33,640 bases of DNA from Planctomycetia bacterium. GTDB taxonomy: Bacteria; Planctomycetota; Planctomycetia; Gemmatales; Gemmataceae. The DNA lies in contig SYHD01000308.1 in NCBI GenBank assembly GCA_005799265.1, forward strand, positions 1 through 33,640. The letters run 5' to 3'. Position 1 is the first letter of the stretch, and each line of letters opens with the position of its first letter. Of this stretch, positions 10,925-21,450 are shown one piece after another. Made by a program: the position numbers and the translations under genes. The notes below the pieces were generated by a model that saw only the letters and a program-made list of their open reading frames with translations, was not told where the DNA came from and ran no database searches.

Positions 10925-13411
10925 ATGTTCCGATATCCCCTTCGCTTCGGCGTGGCAATCGTAGTCGCCTTCGTCGGAGCCGCGAGCGCGAACGCCCAAC
11001 CGATCGATGTTGAAGGCCAGCCGCTTGCCGAGAATGTGTTGCGTCTGCTCCGGGCGCTAGATAGTCTCGGCCAGCCGCTATCCGACGAGCAATCGAAAGC
11101 GATCACCGCCGCCGCCAGGAAGCAGGACGCGCGGAAACTGCAAGAGCTGCTTGATCCGCACGTTCTCTTGCTTGTGCATCTTAATCCCGAAGCACGCGTC
11201 AAGGTCAAGCGCGGCGACGCCCCGACCGTGCTCCAGCAAGGCGGATACACGCCGTTCCTTGTCAAGGTGCATAACGAGAGCACCGTCACCAAGCCGATGC
11301 GCATCGGCAGCCCGCAGGCATTGCCGATCTTTTCGGGCGGACGCTCGAAGAACAAGCCGGAAGCGCTGACCGAGGACGACCTCAAGAATCGCTTCCTCGA
11401 TCTCGAACTTTACACCAGTCCGCCGATGACCGACAAACTCAGCGGCCTCAAGGTCGAGTACGCGCTGGCACTGATTCACAGCAGCCGGGCCGGCGCGGAA
11501 AAAACCAAGGACGGCAAGATCGTTCCCAAGGCCGGCAAGCTCGAAGCGACCCTCGTCATTGACGTCGGCCAGGGAACGCAGGATCTCGGCAGCCGCGGCG
11601 AGACGCCGGTGCTTTTCAATGTCAAGCCCGCCATCCGCGTCAAGCTGCTCATCGCCGATTTCGACGGCACGCCGACCACCGGACGATTTACTTTCAAGGA
11701 TCAAGCGGGCCGCGTCTATCCTCCGAAAGCGAAACGGCTCGCCCCCGATTTCTTCTTCCAAGACCAGGTCTATCGGCACAACGGCGGCGTTGTGCTACTG
11801 CCGCCGGGGGACTTCACCATGACCTATGGCCGCGGGCCGGAGTATCGCCAGCTCACCTCCAGGATCACCGTCCCTGAAAAAGGCGACGCCGTCATCGCCG
11901 TCAAGCTGGAACGCTGGATCAATCCCGCGAACTACGGCTTCTATTCGGGCGATCATCACATCCATGCGGCCGGTTGCTCGCATTACGTCAATCCCACGGA
12001 AGGCGTTTTCGCGGAGGACATGTTCCTGCACGTCAAGGGCGAAGGGCTGAACGTAGGTTGCAACCTGACGTGGGGCCCGTGCTACGATTTCCAACGGCAA
12101 TTTTTTGAACCCAACGCTCACCGCATCAGCGAGCCGTTCACCGTGCTGAAATACGACGTCGAGGTCAGCGGCTTCGGTTCGCAGGCACTGGGCCACGTCT
12201 GCCTACTCAATCTGCGCGATCAGACGTATCCCGGCTCGGATGGGACGAAGACGAAAGGCTGGCCGACCTGGACGACGCCGCTCATGCGCTGGGCGAAAAA
12301 CCAGGGCGCCTACACCGGCTACGCACATTCGGCCAGCGGTCTGGGCATCAATGCCGAGGCCGCGACGGAACGGCTCTTCGTCCAGCTCTCTCTCCTCGAG
12401 GACAACAAGGCGAAGGACAAGAAGGGCAAACGCATCGAGCGCGACCGCAAGGAACTCGAGCGCCTCAAGGTCTCCGAGAAGAAAGCCGACGCCATCGCGC
12501 TGCCGCTCGACTACGACGACGTCGACCTCAACAACGACGGCTTCATCACCTGGGATGAACTCGTCGATGCGCATAAACGGGCCGCCAACAAACTCCCGAA
12601 CTACGCCGTTCCGGAGATGAACGGTATCGGCGCCCAGGAGATTTGCGTCACCGTCGCGCAAGACCTGTGCGACTTCATCAGCGCCATGGACACCAATCGC
12701 GTCCCCGAATGGAACTGCTGGTATCACATCCTCAACTGCGGCTTTCCATTGAAAGTCTCCGGAGAGACCGATTTCCCGTGCATCACTGATTCGCGCGTCG
12801 GCCAGGGGCGCGTTTACGTCCAGATGGGCAAGATCGACAAGATCAACTTCAAGGACTGGGCCGAGGGACTCGCCAAGGGAAGATCGTACGTCAGCGACGG
12901 CTACGCGCACGCCCTGCGTTTCAGCGTCAACGACAAGGTCTGCGGCGAGAAAGTCAAGTTGCCCAAGCCGGGCAACGTGCGGGTGCAAGCGCGCGTCGCC
13001 TTCGCCGCCGACGTCGCCTTGGGCACGGCTCAGGGAGGGCAGACGCCGAAGGGGAAGGAGCGTCTGGTCGAGTTGATCGTCAACGGCCAGGTCGTCGCAA
13101 CGCAGATGGTCCCCGCGGACGACAAGGAGCACGACCTGGAATTCAAGGACGTGGCCATCGAACGCAGTTCATGGGTGGCGCTGCGGCATTTCCCGCAGAT
13201 GCACACCAATCCGGTGGACGTGATCGTCAACGACGCGCCGATCCGTGTGTCGCGAAAGAGCGCCCAGTGGTGCGTCAGCGTGATTGAGCAGCTCTGGCGC
13301 GTGCGCAACGGCGTCATCGCGGAAGAGGAACGCACGGAGGCAGAACGCGTTTTCAACTGGGCGATCCAGCGCTATCAACGAATCGCGCAAGACGCGCCGC
13401 CGGGGAGATGA
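10925..13411 (+). CDS. Large secreted CehA/McbA-like protein with EF-hand
   Basis: The 828-residue product has a cleavable signal peptide (MFRYPLRFGVAIVVAFVGAASANAQ). Residues ~30-330 are beta-rich and unassigned. Residues ~336-480 start with a DxHxH metal-binding motif (D343, H345, H347 in YSGDHHIHAAG), as in the CehA/McbA branch of the PHP superfamily. A highly charged linker (~485-520) leads into a canonical EF-hand loop at 534-545 (D534, N536, D538, T542, E545). The C-terminal ~230 residues resemble the later part of CehA/McbA-type proteins (ITDSRVGQGRVY; YVSDGYAHALRFSVND). A metal-dependent hydrolase acting outside the cytoplasm is likely, substrate unknown. The ATG has GAGGAGG 6 bases upstream. 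The EF-hand insertion within the hydrolase module is the odd point. Confidence 0.85.
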   Translation: MFRYPLRFGVAIVVAFVGAASANAQPIDVEGQPLAENVLRLLRALDSLGQPLSDEQSKAITAAARKQDARKLQELLDPHVLLLVHLNPEARVKVKRGDAPTVLQQGGYTPFLVKVHNESTVTKPMRIGSPQALPIFSGGRSKNKPEALTEDDLKNRFLDLELYTSPPMTDKLSGLKVEYALALIHSSRAGAEKTKDGKIVPKAGKLEATLVIDVGQGTQDLGSRGETPVLFNVKPAIRVKLLIADFDGTPTTGRFTFKDQAGRVYPPKAKRLAPDFFFQDQVYRHNGGVVLLPPGDFTMTYGRGPEYRQLTSRITVPEKGDAVIAVKLERWINPANYGFYSGDHHIHAAGCSHYVNPTEGVFAEDMFLHVKGEGLNVGCNLTWGPCYDFQRQFFEPNAHRISEPFTVLKYDVEVSGFGSQALGHVCLLNLRDQTYPGSDGTKTKGWPTWTTPLMRWAKNQGAYTGYAHSASGLGINAEAATERLFVQLSLLEDNKAKDKKGKRIERDRKELERLKVSEKKADAIALPLDYDDVDLNNDGFITWDELVDAHKRAANKLPNYAVPEMNGIGAQEICVTVAQDLCDFISAMDTNRVPEWNCWYHILNCGFPLKVSGETDFPCITDSRVGQGRVYVQMGKIDKINFKDWAEGLAKGRSYVSDGYAHALRFSVNDKVCGEKVKLPKPGNVRVQARVAFAADVALGTAQGGQTPKGKERLVELIVNGQVVATQMVPADDKEHDLEFKDVAIERSSWVALRHFPQMHTNPVDVIVNDAPIRVSRKSAQWCVSVIEQLWRVRNGVIAEEERTEAERVFNWAIQRYQRIAQDAPPGR

Positions 13412-13670
13412 CCGACCAGCACTCAAGCATTTGCGCCAGTGGTGAAGATGCGATTACGACGATTTTTCTCGGCGCTTCCGACAATAGTCCTGCGTCGCCG
13501 GATATGAAGGCCCGCCAGAAACGCGCGGAATGCCTCCCGAACCATAGCCCGTTCTGAAGCTGAGAATGAGGCCAAATGACAGTGGACTGGCCACCGGTGC
13601 GGCAATAGGATTAGGCCGAGTCATTTTTGCAATACAGTCTGTGTTCGCACCGAAAAAAGGTTGGCTACTT

Positions 13671-14936
13671 ATGGGAAAACTTACGCCCGCCCTGCTGGAG
13701 AAGGCGTCGAAGGCTGCCGACGTGCAAAGGAAGATGATGGCAGATGTCAAGGACTCTGCCGACGAGACCGGCCTATTCTACATCGCCACCAAGGAATTCA
13801 CGATCGGCGGCGAAGGTATTCCGCTGTTCATCTTGACGGCGAGTTCCTCTCACGTCGGCGATTTCATAAAGATCATCAAGGCGCAGGACGGTGCCCCAGT
13901 TGGCAAGGGGACTTGCGATGTGATCACGGATGGCACCGCGCGCAAGGTCGTGTTCGACAACGGCGGCGGTCTGAATGACCAGCTGGTGATGCAGATCATC
14001 AAGAAAGTAGCCAAAATTGCGGGAATCACCAAGGCCGAGGAGGAAAAAGCCAGAAAGAGCAAGGCCAGGGAAATGGCCGACAAGAGCCATGCCGTGGCCC
14101 GCATGGAGGGGAAACTGGATTGGAAGTTCAAACCGACCACGTCGGCGGTGAAGGCGCTGGACGACGCCAGCCAAGAGTGGAACGAGTTCAAGAAATTCAA
14201 AGGGAATTTCATGAAATTCTTGAGCGACAATGGGTTGCCGAAGGACGAAAACCCGTCAACGATCTGGAAAAAGCTCCTTCGGGGCCTGGTTGCCTCGGGC
14301 TACGTGAAAGATGCCATCCCCAAGGCAGCAGACCAGACAAGCTTCATCCTTGGCTTGGAAGGTACGGATGGCAAGGTGGTCCGCGAAAAGTTGCTGGCGC
14401 AGGCGATGGCGGGACTCGAGCCGTTCATCAAGCACGCCGGGAAATACCTTGACAAGGTGGCGACAGCGGCCAGCGGCAAGACCTGGGCTTTCTGGTCGGG
14501 GGCAGGCGCCTTGGATTCGGCCAAGGCGTCCGGCGGGATCTCGCTGGAAGGCACGGTGGGGTCGTTCTTCGACAAATATGAGAACGAGTACACTAATTTT
14601 CCGAAGCTCACCGGCGTCGAAGACATGGCGATTTGGACGGCCATGTCGGAAATGTACGCCGAGAAGGCCGCCGCGCACATGGCCAAGTTCAAAATCATCG
14701 GTTTCGTCGGGCCGGGCGCCACGCGCGATCAGAGCGTTTTCAATAAAATCGAACAACCGGTTTTTATTGAAGTACTGACGGTCAAAATGAAGGCGACCCC
14801 CCCCGATATCGAGTGGTATGTGGTGGATTGTGAAAAAAACAGCACCGACAAGTGGGAGTGGACAAAGAAAGCCCCCAAGAAGTTCGGTGATCGCACCGCG
14901 GCGTTGAACGAAGTCAAACGTCGCTATGGCTCGTAG
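13671..14936 (+). CDS. Candidate CD38/ADP-ribosyl cyclase-like NADase with novel N-terminal region
   Basis: The 421-residue product has no signal peptide or membrane segment, so it is probably cytoplasmic or exported by a non-Sec route. Residues ~30-118 form a compact beta-alpha unit I do not recognise (GLFYIATKEFTIGGEGIPLF start). Residues ~120-265 are Lys-rich and helical. Residues ~270-390 show the residue pattern of the CD38/ADP-ribosyl cyclase family: W275 in FWSG, E293 in LEGT, W322 in IWTAMSEMYAEKA, and E361 in SVFNKIEQP. Human CD38 has W125, E146 in LEDT, W189 in FWKTVSRRFAEAA and E226. That family hydrolyses or cyclises NAD. The ATG at 13671 is preferred to an in-frame ATG at 13566; only a weak AGG precedes it. 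It is Lys-rich compared with its neighbours, and no immunity-like partner is adjacent. Confidence 0.8.
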   Translation: MGKLTPALLEKASKAADVQRKMMADVKDSADETGLFYIATKEFTIGGEGIPLFILTASSSHVGDFIKIIKAQDGAPVGKGTCDVITDGTARKVVFDNGGGLNDQLVMQIIKKVAKIAGITKAEEEKARKSKAREMADKSHAVARMEGKLDWKFKPTTSAVKALDDASQEWNEFKKFKGNFMKFLSDNGLPKDENPSTIWKKLLRGLVASGYVKDAIPKAADQTSFILGLEGTDGKVVREKLLAQAMAGLEPFIKHAGKYLDKVATAASGKTWAFWSGAGALDSAKASGGISLEGTVGSFFDKYENEYTNFPKLTGVEDMAIWTAMSEMYAEKAAAHMAKFKIIGFVGPGATRDQSVFNKIEQPVFIEVLTVKMKATPPDIEWYVVDCEKNSTDKWEWTKKAPKKFGDRTAALNEVKRRYGS

Positions 14937-14951
14937 CCGGTCCTTCTGAGC

Positions 14952-14976
14952 CAGGTGCGGAGAACTGGCGCACCTG
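14952..14976. terminator. Possible hairpin between convergent genes
   Basis: Positions 14952-14959 (caggtgcg) pair perfectly with 14969-14976 across a 9-base loop. The hairpin lies between the plus-strand NADase-like gene (stop at 14936) and the minus-strand pseudopilin operon end (15080), where a bidirectional terminator would be expected. No strong T-run follows on either strand, so intrinsic activity is uncertain. Confidence 0.4.
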
Positions 14977-15079
14977 AGGCGTCTTGATTGGCGGGACAAG
15001 GTCGGCTGATCGCGTGACGGCAGCAACGGCGACAAAGCCAAATGTCGTCCATTTTTCTGATTCACGAAGTGCGGCAGGG

Positions 15080-15460
15080 TCAAGGTGATGGAGCAAAAGT
15101 AACCGGAAGGGCCGGCGGAGTTTCGCCAGGGGGTGTCGGCACGGCGGCCACCAACCAATTGGTTCCGCCTTCGGAAGTGAACGTCACCGTATAGGAATGC
15201 GGGCCCGTCGAGGTGACGATGGTAACAGCTCCGACGTAGGGGCTAGTCGGCGGCAAGCCGGTTTCCAAAAGAGCCAGACCGCGCGCCAGCGCGTGAACAC
15301 TACCTTCATCCCGCTCTACCTGCTGGACACGGGTTGATTCAATGCGAAGAGCAGCGCCGATCTGACGAAAAGCAATGCCCAGTATCGCCAGGAACAATAG
15401 GACGAACGCCAGCACCAACAACATGGCGTAGCCGGGGCGTGAGGAAGAACGTAGCCTCAT
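15080..15460 (-). CDS. GspK/PilX-like minor pseudopilin, short form
   Basis: The 126-residue product has a basic leader followed by a hydrophobic N-terminal helix (PG/YAMLLVLAFVLLFLAILGIAF), the architecture of a minor pilin. The position that is Glu5 in most pilins is Leu, as in GspK-type tip pseudopilins, which lack Glu5. Gene order (last after GspH/I/J-like genes) also fits GspK. It is far shorter than typical GspK (about 300 residues) and lacks the SAM-like domains, so it is either a reduced GspK or a PilX-like protein. Its ATG overlaps the stop of the upstream gspJ-like gene (ATGA, 15457-15460), indicating translational coupling. Last gene of the operon. Confidence 0.8.
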   Translation of the reverse strand: MRLRSSSRPGYAMLLVLAFVLLFLAILGIAFRQIGAALRIESTRVQQVERDEGSVHALARGLALLETGLPPTSPYVGAVTIVTSTGPHSYTVTFTSEGGTNWLVAAVPTPPGETPPALPVTFAPSP

Positions 15461-16038
15461 GGGTCCCTCGCGATCAAGGTGTACGTTTGCGTAATCCCGC
15501 GATACTGAAACGTGATCTTGAGTTGAACCCGATCCCCCATATCTTGCACGTCCAGTTGTTGCACATAGTTGGCTACCGTGTAGCTGGTGCTGGAACTCTG
15601 ATCCCAGCGAACGAGGCGATTATCTTGGACTTCGTAGATAATCACCGTATCCGGTGAGCCCCAGTCAGCGATTCCATTGGGAGTGGCGCTGCCGTCGAAG
15701 CAGAGCCATAGTTGGTTATTGGAGGGTTGCATCCGCCCGACGAAACGGAACTGGGTTTTGGTACCGATCCTTCCCTCCGGGTTGGGCAGACTACCGGCCA
15801 AATCACGCACCAAGGAGGCGGCGGCGAGGTTGGCTTCCTGAGCGAGGCGCGTGCGGTGGACCAGGTCTGCTGTGGGCCGCACGAGACCGGACCAGGTTGC
15901 GGACAGCAGTAGAGTCAAAAACGCCAGAAGGAACGAGACCACCGTGACTTCGAGCAGCGTGAAGCCACGGCGATGGTTGGTGAGTGGTGATTGATGCAAC
16001 ATGGCATGCCTTCTTGTACCCGAATTAAATAGCAACAT
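15457..16038 (-). CDS. GspJ-like pseudopilin
   Basis: The 193-residue product (from 16038) contains a class III prepilin signal: RRG/FTLLEVTVVSFLLAFLTLLLSATW, with cleavage after Gly25 and Glu at mature position 5. The remaining beta-rich domain and size fit GspJ-type minor pseudopilins, and gene order (after gspI-like, before gspK-like) agrees. Two in-frame ATGs, 16038 and 16002, are preceded by nearly the same bases (aagaagg, then tgccATGttgc), so either could be used; leaders would be 25 or 13 residues. The product is processed by a prepilin peptidase encoded elsewhere and assembles near the pseudopilus tip. The downstream gene overlaps by ATGA. Confidence 0.85.
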   Translation of the reverse strand: MLLFNSGTRRHAMLHQSPLTNHRRGFTLLEVTVVSFLLAFLTLLLSATWSGLVRPTADLVHRTRLAQEANLAAASLVRDLAGSLPNPEGRIGTKTQFRFVGRMQPSNNQLWLCFDGSATPNGIADWGSPDTVIIYEVQDNRLVRWDQSSSTSYTVANYVQQLDVQDMGDRVQLKITFQYRGITQTYTLIARDP

Positions 16039-16064
16039 GGCAACCCTTCTTTCTCACCACTCAT

Positions 16065-16844
16065 TCATTGCGGCACCTTTACGGTAATCGCCACATGGAC
16101 GGTGACGTCCTGACTCGTCAGCGATTTTTCCACCGCTACGATGTGCACGAGGTTGTACACGGGGACCAGGCGGACGCCGTCGGCAACAACACGGCCGTCG
16201 GCATCATCGCTCAGAATCACTGTGGCGGCGCCGCTGCTGATGGAGACCGTCGCCAGGCTCTGCCAGGACACATCGCCAAACAGCGGACCGGCAGGAGCCT
16301 TGAGCTGGTTCACGAGGTAGACGCCTCGCAGTATCGCTGCATCGTAAACCTGGTAGGGAGCATTGCTCGCGCGATTGCCACTCGCCAGCCAGGTGACTTG
16401 AACATCGTACCATCCCGGCGGAATGCCCGTGAACTGCCAGGTCGCTGTGTTTTCGCCGGTCCCGGCCGGGTGCCACCGAAGGGTTTCCTGAAACGCTTTT
16501 TTCTGGGTCTCCGCACCCCAACCGGAGCCCGCTTCCACGTAGCCGTATTCTCCGTTGTCAATCAACAATACCGGCGGCGGGGGTCGCACGCCCGGATTCT
16601 GCGTTTGAATCGAAGCAACCGCACCCAGTTTGCGCGCCCACTCATCACTCGAAGGCACCAGGTAGTAGGTGGTTTTGGGGCTGACCCAGCCATCGATTTT
16701 TTTCGCCTGTTTCGACTGCATCACCACCAGAGGATAGAGACCCATCAAAGCCACGGCGAAAACGACCAGGGCGACTTGGACATCCAGAAACGAGAACCCC
16801 TGTCGGCACACTTCCTGTGGCGGTCGCTTGGAATCTATACGCAT
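16065..16844 (-). CDS. GspI-position pseudopilin with Golvesin-like domain
   Basis: The 259-residue product starts with a prepilin-type leader and helix: RQG/FSFLDVQVALVVFAVALMGLYPL. Cleavage is expected after Gly16, and mature position 5 is Asp21, not the near-invariant Glu. From about residue 95 to 235 the body has the pattern of Golvesin/xanthan-lyase-associated beta-sandwich domains: GIPPGWYDVQVTWLASGNRASNAPYQVYD, here only its key words cited (WYDVQVTW, NRASNAPY), and VILSDDADGRVVADGVRLVP (key word VADGVRLVP). Such domains accompany carbohydrate- or surface-active proteins. Typical GspI is ~120 residues, so this is an enlarged pseudopilin with an insert. The ATG at 16844 has GAGAGG upstream; it follows the gspH/G-like gene by 11 bases. 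Whether it is a true GspI or a specialised adhesin pilin is open. Confidence 0.82.
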   Translation of the reverse strand: MRIDSKRPPQEVCRQGFSFLDVQVALVVFAVALMGLYPLVVMQSKQAKKIDGWVSPKTTYYLVPSSDEWARKLGAVASIQTQNPGVRPPPPVLLIDNGEYGYVEAGSGWGAETQKKAFQETLRWHPAGTGENTATWQFTGIPPGWYDVQVTWLASGNRASNAPYQVYDAAILRGVYLVNQLKAPAGPLFGDVSWQSLATVSISSGAATVILSDDADGRVVADGVRLVPVYNLVHIVAVEKSLTSQDVTVHVAITVKVPQ

Positions 16845-16855
16845 GCTTGCACCTC

Positions 16856-17305
16856 TCAATGAAATCCCGGTGTGATTGCAGTTTCACCACTGGCCTGGAT
16901 TGAGCCGGCCATGGCTCCGGTTTGATCGATGGTGATTTGTCCCGCCCATTTACTGCTGCCCGTACGTGTGGCCGTGACGGTGAACGTATTGTTGTCCACC
17001 ACGCTGATCGTGTACGTATAGGGCGTGCTCGCAGCGGCGATACTCGGATCCAGCATGCTTTGCAAGTCGCTCAAGTTACTGGCGAAGCTGCGGTTGTCTA
17101 GCCAGTAGAACCGTTGCGTGGACCAGATCGCACGCAGGTTGGCGGCGGCGATATCGGCTTGCGCCTGCTCCGTGGCCCGGCGAAACGACGGTGCGCTCAG
17201 GGCCACGAGAACGCTCACGATGGCGAGCACCAGCACGATCTCGAACAACGAGAATCCGCACCGGCGCAGCTTCTTTCGATGATCGTGCGGCCTCTGCAAT
17301 TGCAT
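16856..17305 (-). CDS. GspG/GspH-like pseudopilin
   Basis: The 149-residue product has a prepilin leader and helix: RCG/FSLFEIVLVLAIVSVLVALSAP, with cleavage after Gly17 and Glu22 at mature position 5. The helix is followed by a short globular domain with a FYWLDNRSFASNLSDL segment, similar to the alpha-helical beginning of small pseudopilins. Position in the operon after the platform gene and before GspI/J/K-like genes suggests GspH, although a GspG-type role is possible. The ATG has AGGAG 7 bases upstream and the gene starts 15 bases after the GspF stop, so the genes are co-transcribed. Confidence 0.85.
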   Translation of the reverse strand: MQLQRPHDHRKKLRRCGFSLFEIVLVLAIVSVLVALSAPSFRRATEQAQADIAAANLRAIWSTQRFYWLDNRSFASNLSDLQSMLDPSIAAASTPYTYTISVVDNNTFTVTATRTGSSKWAGQITIDQTGAMAGSIQASGETAITPGFH

Positions 17306-17319
17306 GATCCCGCTCCTGG

Positions 17320-18414
17320 TTAGTTGACCTTGCCAGCCATCTCAAACATGGGCAAATAGATCGCCAACATGATGCCGGCGATGGTAATACCCATGCCCAT
17401 GATGATGATGGGTTCCATCAACTTCGTCGCTTTGCCAATGAGGCCTTCCATTTTTTCTTTGTAGTAGGGGGCAATCTGTTCCATGACCGGGGCCAGCTGT
17501 CCGGATTCCTCGCCGACGCGCACCATATTGGTCATCATGCTGGTGAATAGACCGGTTTCCTCAAGAGAGGTCGCCAGCGGTCGGCCGGCCGCGACGCGAT
17601 CCTGGGCACGCCCGATCGCGTCTCGATAAATGGGATTGGTGTGGAAGACGCCTCCCATCACCTCCAACGCCTCCAGCATGGGGATGCCGCTCTTGAGCAA
17701 CAGGGCTATGTTGGAGGCAAATCGATACATGGCCGATTGCACCATGAGTTCACCGAAGAGGGGTGTCACCAGGCAGAGGCCGCCAACGCGTCGCCTCCCC
17801 GTCTCTGTCGTCATGTACTGGCGGAACCCCACCACCGCGGCGATGATGCCGACGAGGATGTAGATGCCGTACACGACGATGAAGTTCGAAGCATCGACCA
17901 CGAACTGCGTGATCCCAGGCAATTCCGCGCCCATTTCCTTGAACATGTTGGCGAAGGTCGGCACGACCAGCCAAAGCATGACGCTCACGGCGATGATGGC
18001 CACCACCGTCAAGATGATCGGATACATCATGGCGCCGACGATCTTGCGCATGGTTTCCCGTGACTCCCGGATTTGCCGATTGAGTTCCACAAGCACGGGG
18101 CCCATCTGTCCCGTGATTTCTCCCGTGCGAATGACTTCGATCCAGTGATGTTCAAAGATGGCTGGGTAGTTGGCGGCGGCGCCGTGTAAGGTGCTGCCCG
18201 CGGCCACGCGCCCCGCGATTTCGCTCAATATTTGCTGCAATTTGCTGCTTTGGCTCTGCTCCGCGCCGATGTTCAGCGCTTGTAGGAGCGGCGTCCCCGA
18301 GCAAACGAGCGTGGACAGCTGCTGAAAGAAGGTCATCTTGTCGTCCATGCTGACTTTCTTGTGCATACTGCTCGACACCCGAGCATGCTCGATCACCCAA
18401 TCTTCAAAAGCCAT
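17320..18414 (-). CDS. gspF: GspF/PilC inner-membrane platform protein
   Basis: The 364-residue product has two tandem T2SSF domains. The first (residues ~30-150) contains FFQQLSTLVCSGTPLLQAL and ends at the first membrane segment (IILTVVAIIAVSVMLWLVVP). The second (~230-355) contains the matching repeat FASNIALLLKSGIPMLEAL and ends in the last membrane helix (IIIMGMGITIAGIMLAIYLP). A central hydrophobic segment (FIVVYGIYILVGIIAAVVGF) completes the usual three. The protein anchors the ATPase to the pseudopilus assembly site. The ATG at 18414 has GAGGAG 6 bases upstream; the longer frame to 18534 reads into the preceding kinase gene. It is slightly shorter at the N-terminus than many GspF proteins. 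It sits 68 bases after the kinase-PilZ stop. Confidence 0.95.
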   Translation of the reverse strand: MAFEDWVIEHARVSSSMHKKVSMDDKMTFFQQLSTLVCSGTPLLQALNIGAEQSQSSKLQQILSEIAGRVAAGSTLHGAAANYPAIFEHHWIEVIRTGEITGQMGPVLVELNRQIRESRETMRKIVGAMMYPIILTVVAIIAVSVMLWLVVPTFANMFKEMGAELPGITQFVVDASNFIVVYGIYILVGIIAAVVGFRQYMTTETGRRRVGGLCLVTPLFGELMVQSAMYRFASNIALLLKSGIPMLEALEVMGGVFHTNPIYRDAIGRAQDRVAAGRPLATSLEETGLFTSMMTNMVRVGEESGQLAPVMEQIAPYYKEKMEGLIGKATKLMEPIIIMGMGITIAGIMLAIYLPMFEMAGKVN

Positions 18415-18482
18415 GAGATACTCCTCGATGTCTTTGGACTGGCGTCCCAGGTTGTTCCCGCGATAAAAATGCTCGATTGGCT

Positions 18483-19679
18483 TTACCGCAAAGACTGCAA
18501 TTCGTTGTTCGTCAACACACGATGAAAGGTACAATCCAACAACCAGCCTTGGGCGGCAACGGCCTGAACTCTCCGAACTCCGCCGAACAACGTGGGGGTG
18601 CCGTCTTGCTGACCTTTCCAGAACAATTGCAACTGAGCGCCTAATTCAAATCGACGCGGTAGAATCAGACCGATGCCGATAGGGGAAACATTCACGATCT
18701 TCGCAGCCCATTTGACCTCGGCATCGAACCCAACGTAACACCCAGCTTCCGGATTACAGGGAAAACGAGTTGTCGCTCGTCGTTCGCGTGTGCGCTCCCC
18801 TGCGAGTACTTTGTTTCCTTGAATATCTGGCGTCAGGGGCGGAAATGAGTTTTTGCCTGTCAGCATGGAAAAGAATTCAAGGCAAGACGATGGACGGTGG
18901 TTCGGCTCTGGCCGCAGGGCCATGCGAATGGCGAAATCGATTCGCTTGCTCAATTCAGGCGCCAGTTGAACAGCCGGGGGAATATCATCGGTCAGCTTTT
19001 TTTTCAGAATGCCAATGGTGGAAGGCGATTCAAACGGCACCTTACCCGTTACCGCCATGTACAAGGTCGCGGCCAGCGAGTAAACATCAGCGCGCCGGTC
19101 CACATTACTGGCGTCTTCGAATTGTTCGGGGGCCATGAAGTTGGGAGTTCCTAACCCCAATCGTGCGGGCGTCAAGGTAACGTCGACTTTAGTATTCTTG
19201 GCCAAGCCAAAGTCGATTAACTTGGCATCGTTGTTGTCCGCCAGAACGATATTGCTCGGCTTGATGTCACGATGAATGACGCCGTGCTTATGGACGTAGT
19301 GCAATGCATCGGCAATCTGGATGATGATGTGAACTGCATCCGCTTCGGCCAGCTTGCCGCCGCGTTTGAGACGTTGCGCCAAGTTCAGCCCTTCCGCGAG
19401 TTCCATGACAATGTAGGGGGAGGAATTCATCATGCCGTGGTCCAAGGAACGCAAGAGACGTGGATGATTGAGCAGACGCGTGGCGCCGTACTCTCGTCTG
19501 CTGCGTTGCGCCAACACGGGATGCTCATTGATGGTGGCGCTCGAGAGCTTGATAGCCACGAGTTCCCCCGTGTCGCGGTGGCGAGCCTTATAGACAACAC
19601 CCATGGCGCCGCGGCCAATTTTTTCCACCACCTGATAGGCGCCGATAGTTTGGCAAGCGGGAACGGTTATTTTCGACAT
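18483..19679 (-). CDS. Ser/Thr protein kinase fused to a PilZ domain
   Basis: Residues ~13-275 of this 398-residue protein form a complete Hanks-type kinase: glycine loop GRGAMG (22-27), K44 in VAIKL, catalytic HRDIKPSN (136-143), DFG (156-158) and APEQ (183-186). Residues ~296-395 form a PilZ domain with both cyclic-di-GMP binding motifs: R301 and R305 (RxxxR) and N330-V-S-P-I-G335 (NxSxxG). No membrane segment is seen, so the protein is cytoplasmic. The gene lies between the GspE/PilB ATPase (32 bases upstream) and GspF (68 bases downstream), so it is probably a dedicated regulator of this machine, phosphorylating a component in response to cyclic-di-GMP. That role is inference. The ATG has AAGGA upstream. 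Confidence 0.92.
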   Translation of the reverse strand: MSKITVPACQTIGAYQVVEKIGRGAMGVVYKARHRDTGELVAIKLSSATINEHPVLAQRSRREYGATRLLNHPRLLRSLDHGMMNSSPYIVMELAEGLNLAQRLKRGGKLAEADAVHIIIQIADALHYVHKHGVIHRDIKPSNIVLADNNDAKLIDFGLAKNTKVDVTLTPARLGLGTPNFMAPEQFEDASNVDRRADVYSLAATLYMAVTGKVPFESPSTIGILKKKLTDDIPPAVQLAPELSKRIDFAIRMALRPEPNHRPSSCLEFFSMLTGKNSFPPLTPDIQGNKVLAGERTRERRATTRFPCNPEAGCYVGFDAEVKWAAKIVNVSPIGIGLILPRRFELGAQLQLFWKGQQDGTPTLFGGVRRVQAVAAQGWLLDCTFHRVLTNNELQSLR

Positions 19680-19710
19680 GGCTTGTTTCCTTTGCTCGTT
19701 AGGCTTACTT

Positions 19711-21450
19711 TCAATCCCCTTCCGCCATCGTGACGCTTAAGGCCTCCTCCAGACTGGTCATGCCGACGCGGACTTTGTCGATCGCGCTATCGGTCAGCAA
19801 CTTCATCCCTTGCTCCGAGGCGGCGCGGCGCAGTTCCGAAACCGGGGTCCGACTCTGAATCAGGTTTGCCATCCGAGGCGTAATGCGGATCACTTCAAAA
19901 ATTCCGACGCGCCCACGGTAGCCGGAGTTTCGGCAGCTGGCACATCCTTTGGGGCGATACAGCATTCGTCCGGGTTCCAGACCGTGCCGCCGCGCGGTCT
20001 CTGGGTCGCAGTCATAGGGTTCCTTGCAATCCTTGCACAGCCGGCGGATCAGGCGCTGGGCCTCCACCACGCGCATCGTGGAAGCTAACAAGAACGGCTC
20101 GATGCCCATGTCCTGCAACCGGCTGACCGACGACAGCGAGTCGTTGGTGTGAATGGTGGACAGGACGAAGTGGCCAGTCAGGGCGGCCTTCAAGCAAATC
20201 TGGGCGGTCTCCTGATCGCGCACCTCGCCGACCATGATCACATCGGGATCCTGCCGCAGGAAGGCGCGCAAGGCGCTGGCGAACGTCAGTCCCACCTGTG
20301 TCTTTACTTGCACCTGGTTCATGCCCTTGAACTTGTATTCGACGGGATCCTCCACCGTGCAGATGTTGGTGTCCGCTTCGTTCAACAGATTGAGGCAGGC
20401 ATAGAGCGTGGTGCTTTTGCCGCTACCGGTGGGTCCGGTGACCAGCATGAGGCCGTGCGGCAGCGCGATGGATTCGACGAGGTCGGTGGATTGCCGTTCG
20501 TCAAAACCAAGGCCCGTCAGTTGCAGGGGAATCGCCCCTTTGTCGAGGATACGCATGACCATCTTTTCGCCGTAGACGGTGGGAACCGTGTTGACACGCA
20601 GATCGACGCGTTTGTCCCCTTGTCGCAGCGCGATGGCGCCGTCTTGGGGGATGCGCTTTTCGGCGATGTCCATCTTGGCGAGAATCTTGAAACGCGACAC
20701 AATTGGCAAGAACAAGGCGCGCGAGGGAGGCGCGATTTCCTGCAGCAAGCCATCGACACGGAAGCGGATCTTGCAGGAATCCTCGAACGGCTCCAGGTGA
20801 ATGTCGCTCGCGTTGTTGCGCAGCGCTTGCTCCAGGACCTGGTTCACCAGGCGAATGATTCGGCCATCGCGGCCCGGCGGCGGCGGCTGATCGAGGTGAA
20901 GGATTTCACCGTCCTGGTCCGAGGCCCCCTCGTCGTCGTCCTCATCCTCTGCTTCGAATTCCTTGGCCCCGGCAGAAAAATCGTCCGTGGCGGCGCCGGT
21001 GCCATAAAGAGTTTCAAGTAGTCCCTCGACGACGCCAAGGGGAGCGATGAAAGGCCGAACGGGCATGTTCGTGAGAAGCTGGACCTCATCGATGATCAGC
21101 ATCTCATTGGGCGTGACAAAAATGAGGTCCAAGGTTTGGTCGTGTATAGCCACGGGGACAATCAGTTGGTCCCGGCAGAGTTTCTCCGGCAGCAAGCGGC
21201 GCAGCGCCGGATCCACTTGCAATTCGCTTTTGGCCGGCTCAAAAAGCGGTAGGGCCAGATGCTCGGCATAGGCCGCGGCAATGTCCTGCTCGGTGGCGAG
21301 TTCTTTCTTGAGAATAAGCCGCTCGATCGGTCCGTTTTCCTTGGCATGCGCCTCGCGCAGAATCTCCAGCTTTTTCGCGTCCAGTAGCCCTTTTTCTTGT
21401 AAGAGCTTCAGAATCAAGGTCTCCAGCGGGTCGGTCATGATGTTGGCCAC
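19711..21450 (-). CDS. gspE: GspE/PilB assembly ATPase
   Basis: The 579-residue product powers pseudopilus extension on the cytoplasmic side. Seen in order: an N-terminal MshEN/GspE_N-type domain (residues ~10-150, LPLFEP, LCRDQLIVPVA), an acidic linker (~165-182), and the ATPase core with Walker A GPTGSGKST (339-347), Asp box (TVEDPVEY, 365-372), Walker B (DPDVIMVGEVRD, 401-412) and His box (HTNDS, 434-438). The tetracysteine zinc site is present (C472, C475, C503, C506). MshEN domains can bind cyclic-di-GMP; whether this one keeps those residues I cannot decide by eye. The start is GTG at 21450 with AGGAG 9 bases upstream; an ATG at 21438 is the alternative. Confidence 0.95.
   Translation of the reverse strand: MANIMTDPLETLILKLLQEKGLLDAKKLEILREAHAKENGPIERLILKKELATEQDIAAAYAEHLALPLFEPAKSELQVDPALRRLLPEKLCRDQLIVPVAIHDQTLDLIFVTPNEMLIIDEVQLLTNMPVRPFIAPLGVVEGLLETLYGTGAATDDFSAGAKEFEAEDEDDDEGASDQDGEILHLDQPPPPGRDGRIIRLVNQVLEQALRNNASDIHLEPFEDSCKIRFRVDGLLQEIAPPSRALFLPIVSRFKILAKMDIAEKRIPQDGAIALRQGDKRVDLRVNTVPTVYGEKMVMRILDKGAIPLQLTGLGFDERQSTDLVESIALPHGLMLVTGPTGSGKSTTLYACLNLLNEADTNICTVEDPVEYKFKGMNQVQVKTQVGLTFASALRAFLRQDPDVIMVGEVRDQETAQICLKAALTGHFVLSTIHTNDSLSSVSRLQDMGIEPFLLASTMRVVEAQRLIRRLCKDCKEPYDCDPETARRHGLEPGRMLYRPKGCASCRNSGYRGRVGIFEVIRITPRMANLIQSRTPVSELRRAASEQGMKLLTDSAIDKVRVGMTSLEEALSVTMAEGD

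Follow-up and report, generated by a model that had tools for sequence, protein, structure and literature searches.

Does a planctomycete make an enzyme of the CD38 type and, if it does, would the protein act as a toxin or as a maker of signals? The question is raised by one gene of contig SYHD01000308.1 (Planctomycetia bacterium). The contig was taken entire, at 33,640 bases, as the window of this study, from an assembly of 6.47 Mb and 372 contigs rated 87% complete. The gene encodes 421 residues, and a first-pass annotation had matched four of them to the active site of human CD38, proposing an ADP-ribosyl cyclase (ARC)-like enzyme that consumes nicotinamide adenine dinucleotide (NAD). This assignment held: residues ~272–421 are supported as an ARC domain region of the CD38 type by profile comparison, tree and fold, and we consider with high confidence that the protein is an ARC-fold NAD enzyme. 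It probably acts as an NAD(P)-consuming effector, on a branch apart from the bacterial ARC toxins Tac1 and ARCtox. The parts of the gene are listed with the equivalent residues of CD38, Tac1 and ARCtox; L061 and L071 are relatives of the protein, and cADPr (cADPR) is cyclic ADP-ribose.

13671..14936, plus strand: gene of the ARC-domain protein, 421 aa; open reading frame (ORF) with its start backed by the collinear relative L061
13671..14117, plus strand: residues 1–149, N-terminal region; helix and small alpha/beta part, then a long helix, in a low-confidence model; kept in L061
14118..14483, plus strand: residues 150–271, helical; kept in L061 and L071, the final part in the wider branch too; runs into the ARC core
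14484..14786, plus strand: residues 272–372, ARC (CD38-like) catalytic core
14493..14495, plus strand: W275 codon (ARCtox W273)
14547..14549, plus strand: E293 codon, by homology the cADPr-hydrolysis glutamate (CD38 E146, Tac1 E516, ARCtox E299)
14634..14636, plus strand: W322 codon (Tac1 W540, ARCtox W323)
14751..14753, plus strand: E361 codon, by homology the essential catalytic glutamate (CD38 E226, Tac1 E573, ARCtox E356)
14787..14936, plus strand: residues 373–421 and stop, C-terminal beta/helix extension; kept in L061 and L071, with weaker conservation among the giants

The longest ORF in this frame begins at 13566; the start of L061, a full-length relative, corresponds to 13671, and this match supports 13671 as the likely start of the gene. 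Translation and alignment place W275, E293, W322 and E361 where they had been reported, with spacings of 18, 29 and 39. Their four columns, which are the positions mutated in ARCtox and Tac1, are invariant in 36 of 36 aligned sequences. We take W275 and W322 to correspond to CD38 W125 and W189 (CD38 numbering as in the first-pass annotation). A tryptophan four positions ahead of the E361 column is nearly invariant in the 33 outside ARCs described below, and the window protein has F357 there. A CD38-like disulfide set is absent, as had been noted before, because C82 and C387 are the only two cysteines.

Homologues were collected with a DNA pattern, a degenerate form of the first three motifs of the window protein (FWxG..LExT..WxxxSxx[FY]A); exact motifs were required, and the fourth, that of E361, was not. 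The pattern had a single match in the window and none in 100 shuffles. It found 58 stretches in genome_contigs, 54 of them in frame within ARC-like reading frames, and had no match in viral_contigs. The matched set includes Streptococcus parasanguinis, the species from which the solved toxin Tac1 comes. The four out-of-frame stretches (L054, L055, L067, L083) were dropped, and a redundancy cut at 80% identity removed 19 of the 54 in-frame rows (including L084, whose frame stops ahead of the E361 position), which left 35: 33 diverse outside ARCs, L061 and L071. All 33 non-redundant outside ARCs have the E361 glutamate, though it was absent from the search pattern. PF02267 matches 30 of the 33 at E≤0.1 (the first member falls under the Pfam cut-off), and a profile of the 33 retrieves 9ouf, 9ro8, Aplysia cyclase and CD38 from PDB sequences.

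Profile–profile comparison (hhalign) of the window family (three rows: window protein, L061 and L071) with the 33 ARCs gave a match above chance, with probability 97.4 and E 1.3e-11. Because the outside rows had been chosen by a window-derived pattern, the comparison was repeated with the 11 pattern columns masked, as a check of circularity. Only the stretch around E361 then aligned, in the same register (E 0.0082, probability 4.9), a result weak alone but obtained in a region outside the selection. Run against the window genome, the profile of the 33 ARCs found a single place at E≤1, the ARC gene itself (E 3.5e-9).

A chance resemblance to CD38 could be argued from searches with the single protein, which stayed under cut-off in Pfam and NCBIfam and yielded no convincing hit in PHROGs, PADLOC or PDB sequences; PF02267 matched neither the window protein nor the window genome. 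The profile, tree and fold results, and the conservation of E361 outside the search pattern, leave this explanation a negligible probability, and we regard it as already refuted. The sub-threshold Pfam matches of the protein or its C-terminal domain (AbpA-like, E 0.83; Ycf34, 0.12; ElaD-SseL-like_C, 0.17) were unusable. None of the back-translated peptide matches was confirmed (14 stretches in genome_contigs, 4 in viral_contigs), and matches to a Sulfitobacter phage (E 0.3) and an Arthrobacter plasmid (E 1) were judged chance on inspection; two Salmonella records reached only E 5-7. Alignment A1 gave nothing confirmed in viral_contigs, and L071 as query had no match among plasmids and phages.

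The core is predicted to adopt an ARC fold. In an AlphaFold model built with relatives, the ARC region was mostly confident and the N-terminal region of low confidence; by VIA-align the closest solved structures were the bacterial ARC toxins 9ouf and 9ro8. Foldseek alone gave no match at E≤0.001 for this second model, so the fold claim rests on VIA-align. The first model (single sequence, predicted local distance difference test 38) was set aside.

Where does the protein stand among ARC enzymes? An unrooted tree of 44 ARC domains sets the window family, together with eight relatives, apart from the 33 others with support 100/100. The branch has 11 members (window protein, L061, L071 and L119–L126), all 11 with the four catalytic residues. 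L061 (Planctomycetaceae UBA6172, 417 residues) shares 38% identity with the window protein over 434 alignment columns. L071 (600 residues, filed as uncultured proteobacterium) shares 54% over 305 columns and has another N-terminus and no Pfam match; its phylum is presumably Myxococcota. An A1 search of 329 genomes of that phylum gave 10 with a match: L071's own, eight with ARC motifs, and one (G740, loci L117/L127) that was dropped for a frame without motifs. Five of the eight further branch members, L119–L123, form one family of giant proteins, of which one carries the core domain of an extracellular contractile injection system (eCIS).

4171-11670 of L120, plus strand: giant protein, 2500-residue frame, with eCIS core PF13699 (E 3.5e-25), ARC and calpain protease PF00648 (E 3.7e-21) in one chain

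The window protein aligns directly with L120 (30% over 123 columns, E 1.6e-11), and the motif FNKIEQP is identical in the window protein, L119 and L120. At their upstream ends L119, L121, L122 and L123 are cut off by the contig edge; what is left of these frames is collinear with the part of L120 that follows the eCIS core; calpain is also found in L121 and L123, and none was seen in L119 and L122. L124, L125 and L126 have shorter frames (206, 473 and 375). The giants and the window protein thus share an ARC branch and a helical lead-in, but the giants have frames of 1103–2500 residues, the eCIS core (L120) and calpain (L120, L121, L123), whereas the window protein has 421 residues and an unrelated N-terminus. 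Judged by sequence, this branch is distinct from the Tac1/ARCtox toxins, sparsely sampled, and new here.

Residues 1–265 had been read by the first-pass annotation as a targeting or sensing part. Residues 1–270 matched no family of Pfam, NCBIfam or PHROGs, including trafficking domains (PAAR, VgrG, LXG, CdiA, Rhs). From about residue 246 on, the stretch is common to the window protein and L120, and two relatives match the family model starting at positions 163 and 165, so that part of residues 1–265 belongs with the enzyme. The proposal is addressed only in part by this. Residues 1–120 are kept in L061. A comparison gave no support to the idea that L071 and the window protein share one N-terminal domain (hhalign E 0.22, probability 0.3).

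Bacterial ARC domains and toxins are already known. The prediction of Tox-ARC dates from 2012 and covered Actinobacteria, Bacteroidetes, Cyanobacteria, Firmicutes, beta-/gamma-proteobacteria and spirochaetes, with links to secretion systems of types II, V, VI and VII (T2SS, T5SS, T6SS, T7SS) and to Imm74/Imm63 (PMC3482391). The descriptions of Tac1 and Nac1 followed in July 2025 (PMC12356396), that of ARCtox in September 2025 (PMC12605009). The Tac1 change E573A abolished activity and E516A released cADPr (PMC12356396); four of four ARCtox alanine variants lost toxicity in E. coli, and the E299 variant still depleted NAD (PMC12605009). Tac1 (the S. parasanguinis T7SSb ARC toxin; PDB 9ouf was taken as Tac1 by title and organism) resembles the window protein in ARC core fold, catalytic glutamate, cADPr-hydrolysis glutamate and tryptophans. 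It differs by an LXG domain and an Imm74 partner, neither recognised here, and by shorter spacings (E–W 24 versus 29 in the window protein, W–E 33 versus 39); the window protein has in addition the helical lead-in and the C-terminal extension, and sits on a separate branch. ARCtox (C-terminus of PANA_2924, T6SS, PDB 9ro8) has a PAAR carrier and a cognate immunity protein, again neither recognised in the window. CD38/BST-1 and Aplysia cyclase (PF02267) share the fold, predicted here, and the four active-site residues, whereas the window protein lacks their disulfide set, has a shorter E–W stretch and does not match PF02267.

With family, fold and conserved residues computed here, we infer activity and product from the precedent of Tac1. 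The glutamate indispensable for catalysis would be E361, the dinucleotide would be held by W275 and W322, and E293 would drive hydrolysis of the cyclic intermediate. Since E293 is kept, linear ADP-ribose rather than cADPR is expected as the main product, and the protein is quite likely to be mainly a hydrolase. As an effector, it would poison another cell by emptying its NAD(P) pool. An effector rather than a housekeeping role is somewhat favoured, given the eCIS-type relatives.

No immunity gene had been visible beside the gene in the first-pass annotation, and Pfam recognised none among the scanned neighbours: no known immunity family (Imm74 or other) and no secretion marker, though an unrecognised or unlinked immunity gene is possible. 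The scanned neighbours of L061 and L071 likewise held no recognised immunity gene. This counts against a classical polymorphic toxin; the two features of Tox-ARC toxins, a fused trafficking domain and an adjacent immunity gene, are both missing among recognised families, an undescribed trafficking domain being possible. The orphan state would be in keeping with a target that differs from the producer, with an N-terminal part that inhibits the enzyme itself, or with an enzyme like Nac1. The last, a non-toxic orphan ARC enzyme making cADPR or tuning the cell's own NAD, is the main rival. It gains from the same missing partner, since Nac enzymes were defined by lack of toxin context (PMC12356396), and the window gene has no recognised immunity gene or toxin system alongside. 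However, Nac1 (Actinophytocola oryzae) has alanine at the E516 position and a predicted signal peptide (PMC12356396), whereas the window protein keeps E293, the cADPr-hydrolysis glutamate, and shows no signal peptide by eye. Sister sequences in eCIS-type cargo also speak against it, and we consider a Nac1-like role rather unlikely.

If the protein is an effector, what would carry it? That role we infer from the eCIS-type relatives: in the sister group the ARC domain sits within eCIS-type cargo, and the window protein and L061 are free-standing ARC proteins, carried possibly by the type VI system of the genome. eCIS core proteins and contractile sheath genes are present in the genomes of L071, L120 and L121. 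The window protein shows no eCIS core domain and its genome no eCIS structural genes; PF13699 and PF04984 had no match in the window genome, at its 87% completeness, or in that of L061 (G442). Type VI sheath genes occur in the genomes of the window and of L061, and also in 27 of the 58 other genomes of the relatives sample, so that a type VI link of the ARC gene does not rise above the base rate. The type VI sheath (VipB/TssC) genes of the window genome lie on contig C322, at 14119-20747, and their protein is 51% identical to that of the L061 genome.

NADases are common defence effectors, and a free-standing protein without a recognised immunity gene could be an intracellular (abortive infection) NADase with residues 1–150 as sensor. 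Against this, PADLOC (PADLOC-DB version 2023) gave no match at E≤0.01 in 10 neighbourhood proteins, the ARC protein included, and the annotated neighbours are of metabolic, leucine-rich repeat or pilus type; we hold a defence role improbable. The gene upstream, on the same strand, is the following.

10925-13411, plus strand: CehA/McbA metallohydrolase, 828 residues, with a sub-threshold EF-hand-like calcium motif

No same-strand ORF of at least 80 aa starts within ~390 bases 3' of the ARC gene. Downstream, ORF 15080-15460 is encoded on the opposite strand, next to genes of pilus type; that strand carries a pilus/type II-secretion-like cluster with a pilin-type protein, T2SSF, a kinase–PilZ protein and T2SSE. 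Two genes of this region were noted in passing.

16065-16859, minus strand: Golvesin C-terminal domain protein adjoining a pilin-type gene
18483-19679, minus strand: Pkinase domain fused to PilZ (cyclic di-GMP binding type), inside the cluster

The G+C content of the ARC gene (0.563) and that of its third codon positions (GC3, 0.756) do not depart from the values spanned by 16 other window ORFs, and thus give no compositional sign of recent insertion.

The family is rare. The window itself apart, the 58 genomes of the relatives sample held no credible member, with weak matches in 13 (E 0.10-0.96), and the A1 search of an overlapping phylum sample found none in its 391 other genomes, where weak matches in G088 and G317 (near E 0.008) lacked the motif set. 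Other weak matches in 10 of the 391 (E 0.005-0.1) also lacked it, and a check of both strands at 43 loci (L002-L043, L104) found the set in the window's own L018 only. PF02267 matched 33 of 392 genomes of the phylum sample at E≤1, with none above cut-off, and the other 97 genomes around that of L061 held no credible member. Such sparseness could be expected of a decayed or inactive ARC domain; yet the window protein and L061, at only 38% identity, both retain an intact frame and all four catalytic residues, which makes decay very improbable.

Within the open literature searched, this branch, its tie to eCIS and the form that lacks a recognised partner appear undescribed. The carriers named for ARC domains are PAAR, RHS, FIX, LXG, EsxA, TPS, pyocins, Flp pilins and Fn3, in a paper whose main text never uses the term eCIS (PMC12605009) and whose Figure 5 includes a Pendulispora protein. 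In the available part of a paper on eCIS toxins, NADase is named twice, and CD38, cyclase and calpain are not (PMC11297309). No paper joining ARC with eCIS was found in the open literature, subscription papers and preprints being mostly or wholly outside this scope, and the accessible portions of that literature on ADP-ribosyl cyclase and Planctomycetes describe no planctomycete ARC protein of such kind.

The known range of CD38-fold enzymes is thereby widened beyond the Tac1/ARCtox branch, and the fold is tied to contractile injection cargo. A tentative wider picture is that the bacterial CD38-fold enzymes have a second deep branch whose members serve as eCIS payload, packed with a calpain protease in giant cargo. 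In Planctomycetes the enzyme would stand free, bring an N-terminal domain of its own and lack an immunity partner, and would be used either as an effector against cells that call for no self-protection (eukaryotes that are prey or host, for instance) or for native regulation of cADPR/NAD. With a NADase that looks intact and has no recognised immunity partner, the choice between toxin and cADPR signal, for orphan bacterial ARCs, becomes directly testable on one small protein.

Among the pattern-matched sequences, finally, there are three groups (L050/L066; L052/L057/L060/L065/L073/L090/L099; L047/L062) within which the ARC toxin domains show no difference between the FWSG motif and the stop although the genomes are recorded under different species names, which suggests recent transfer.
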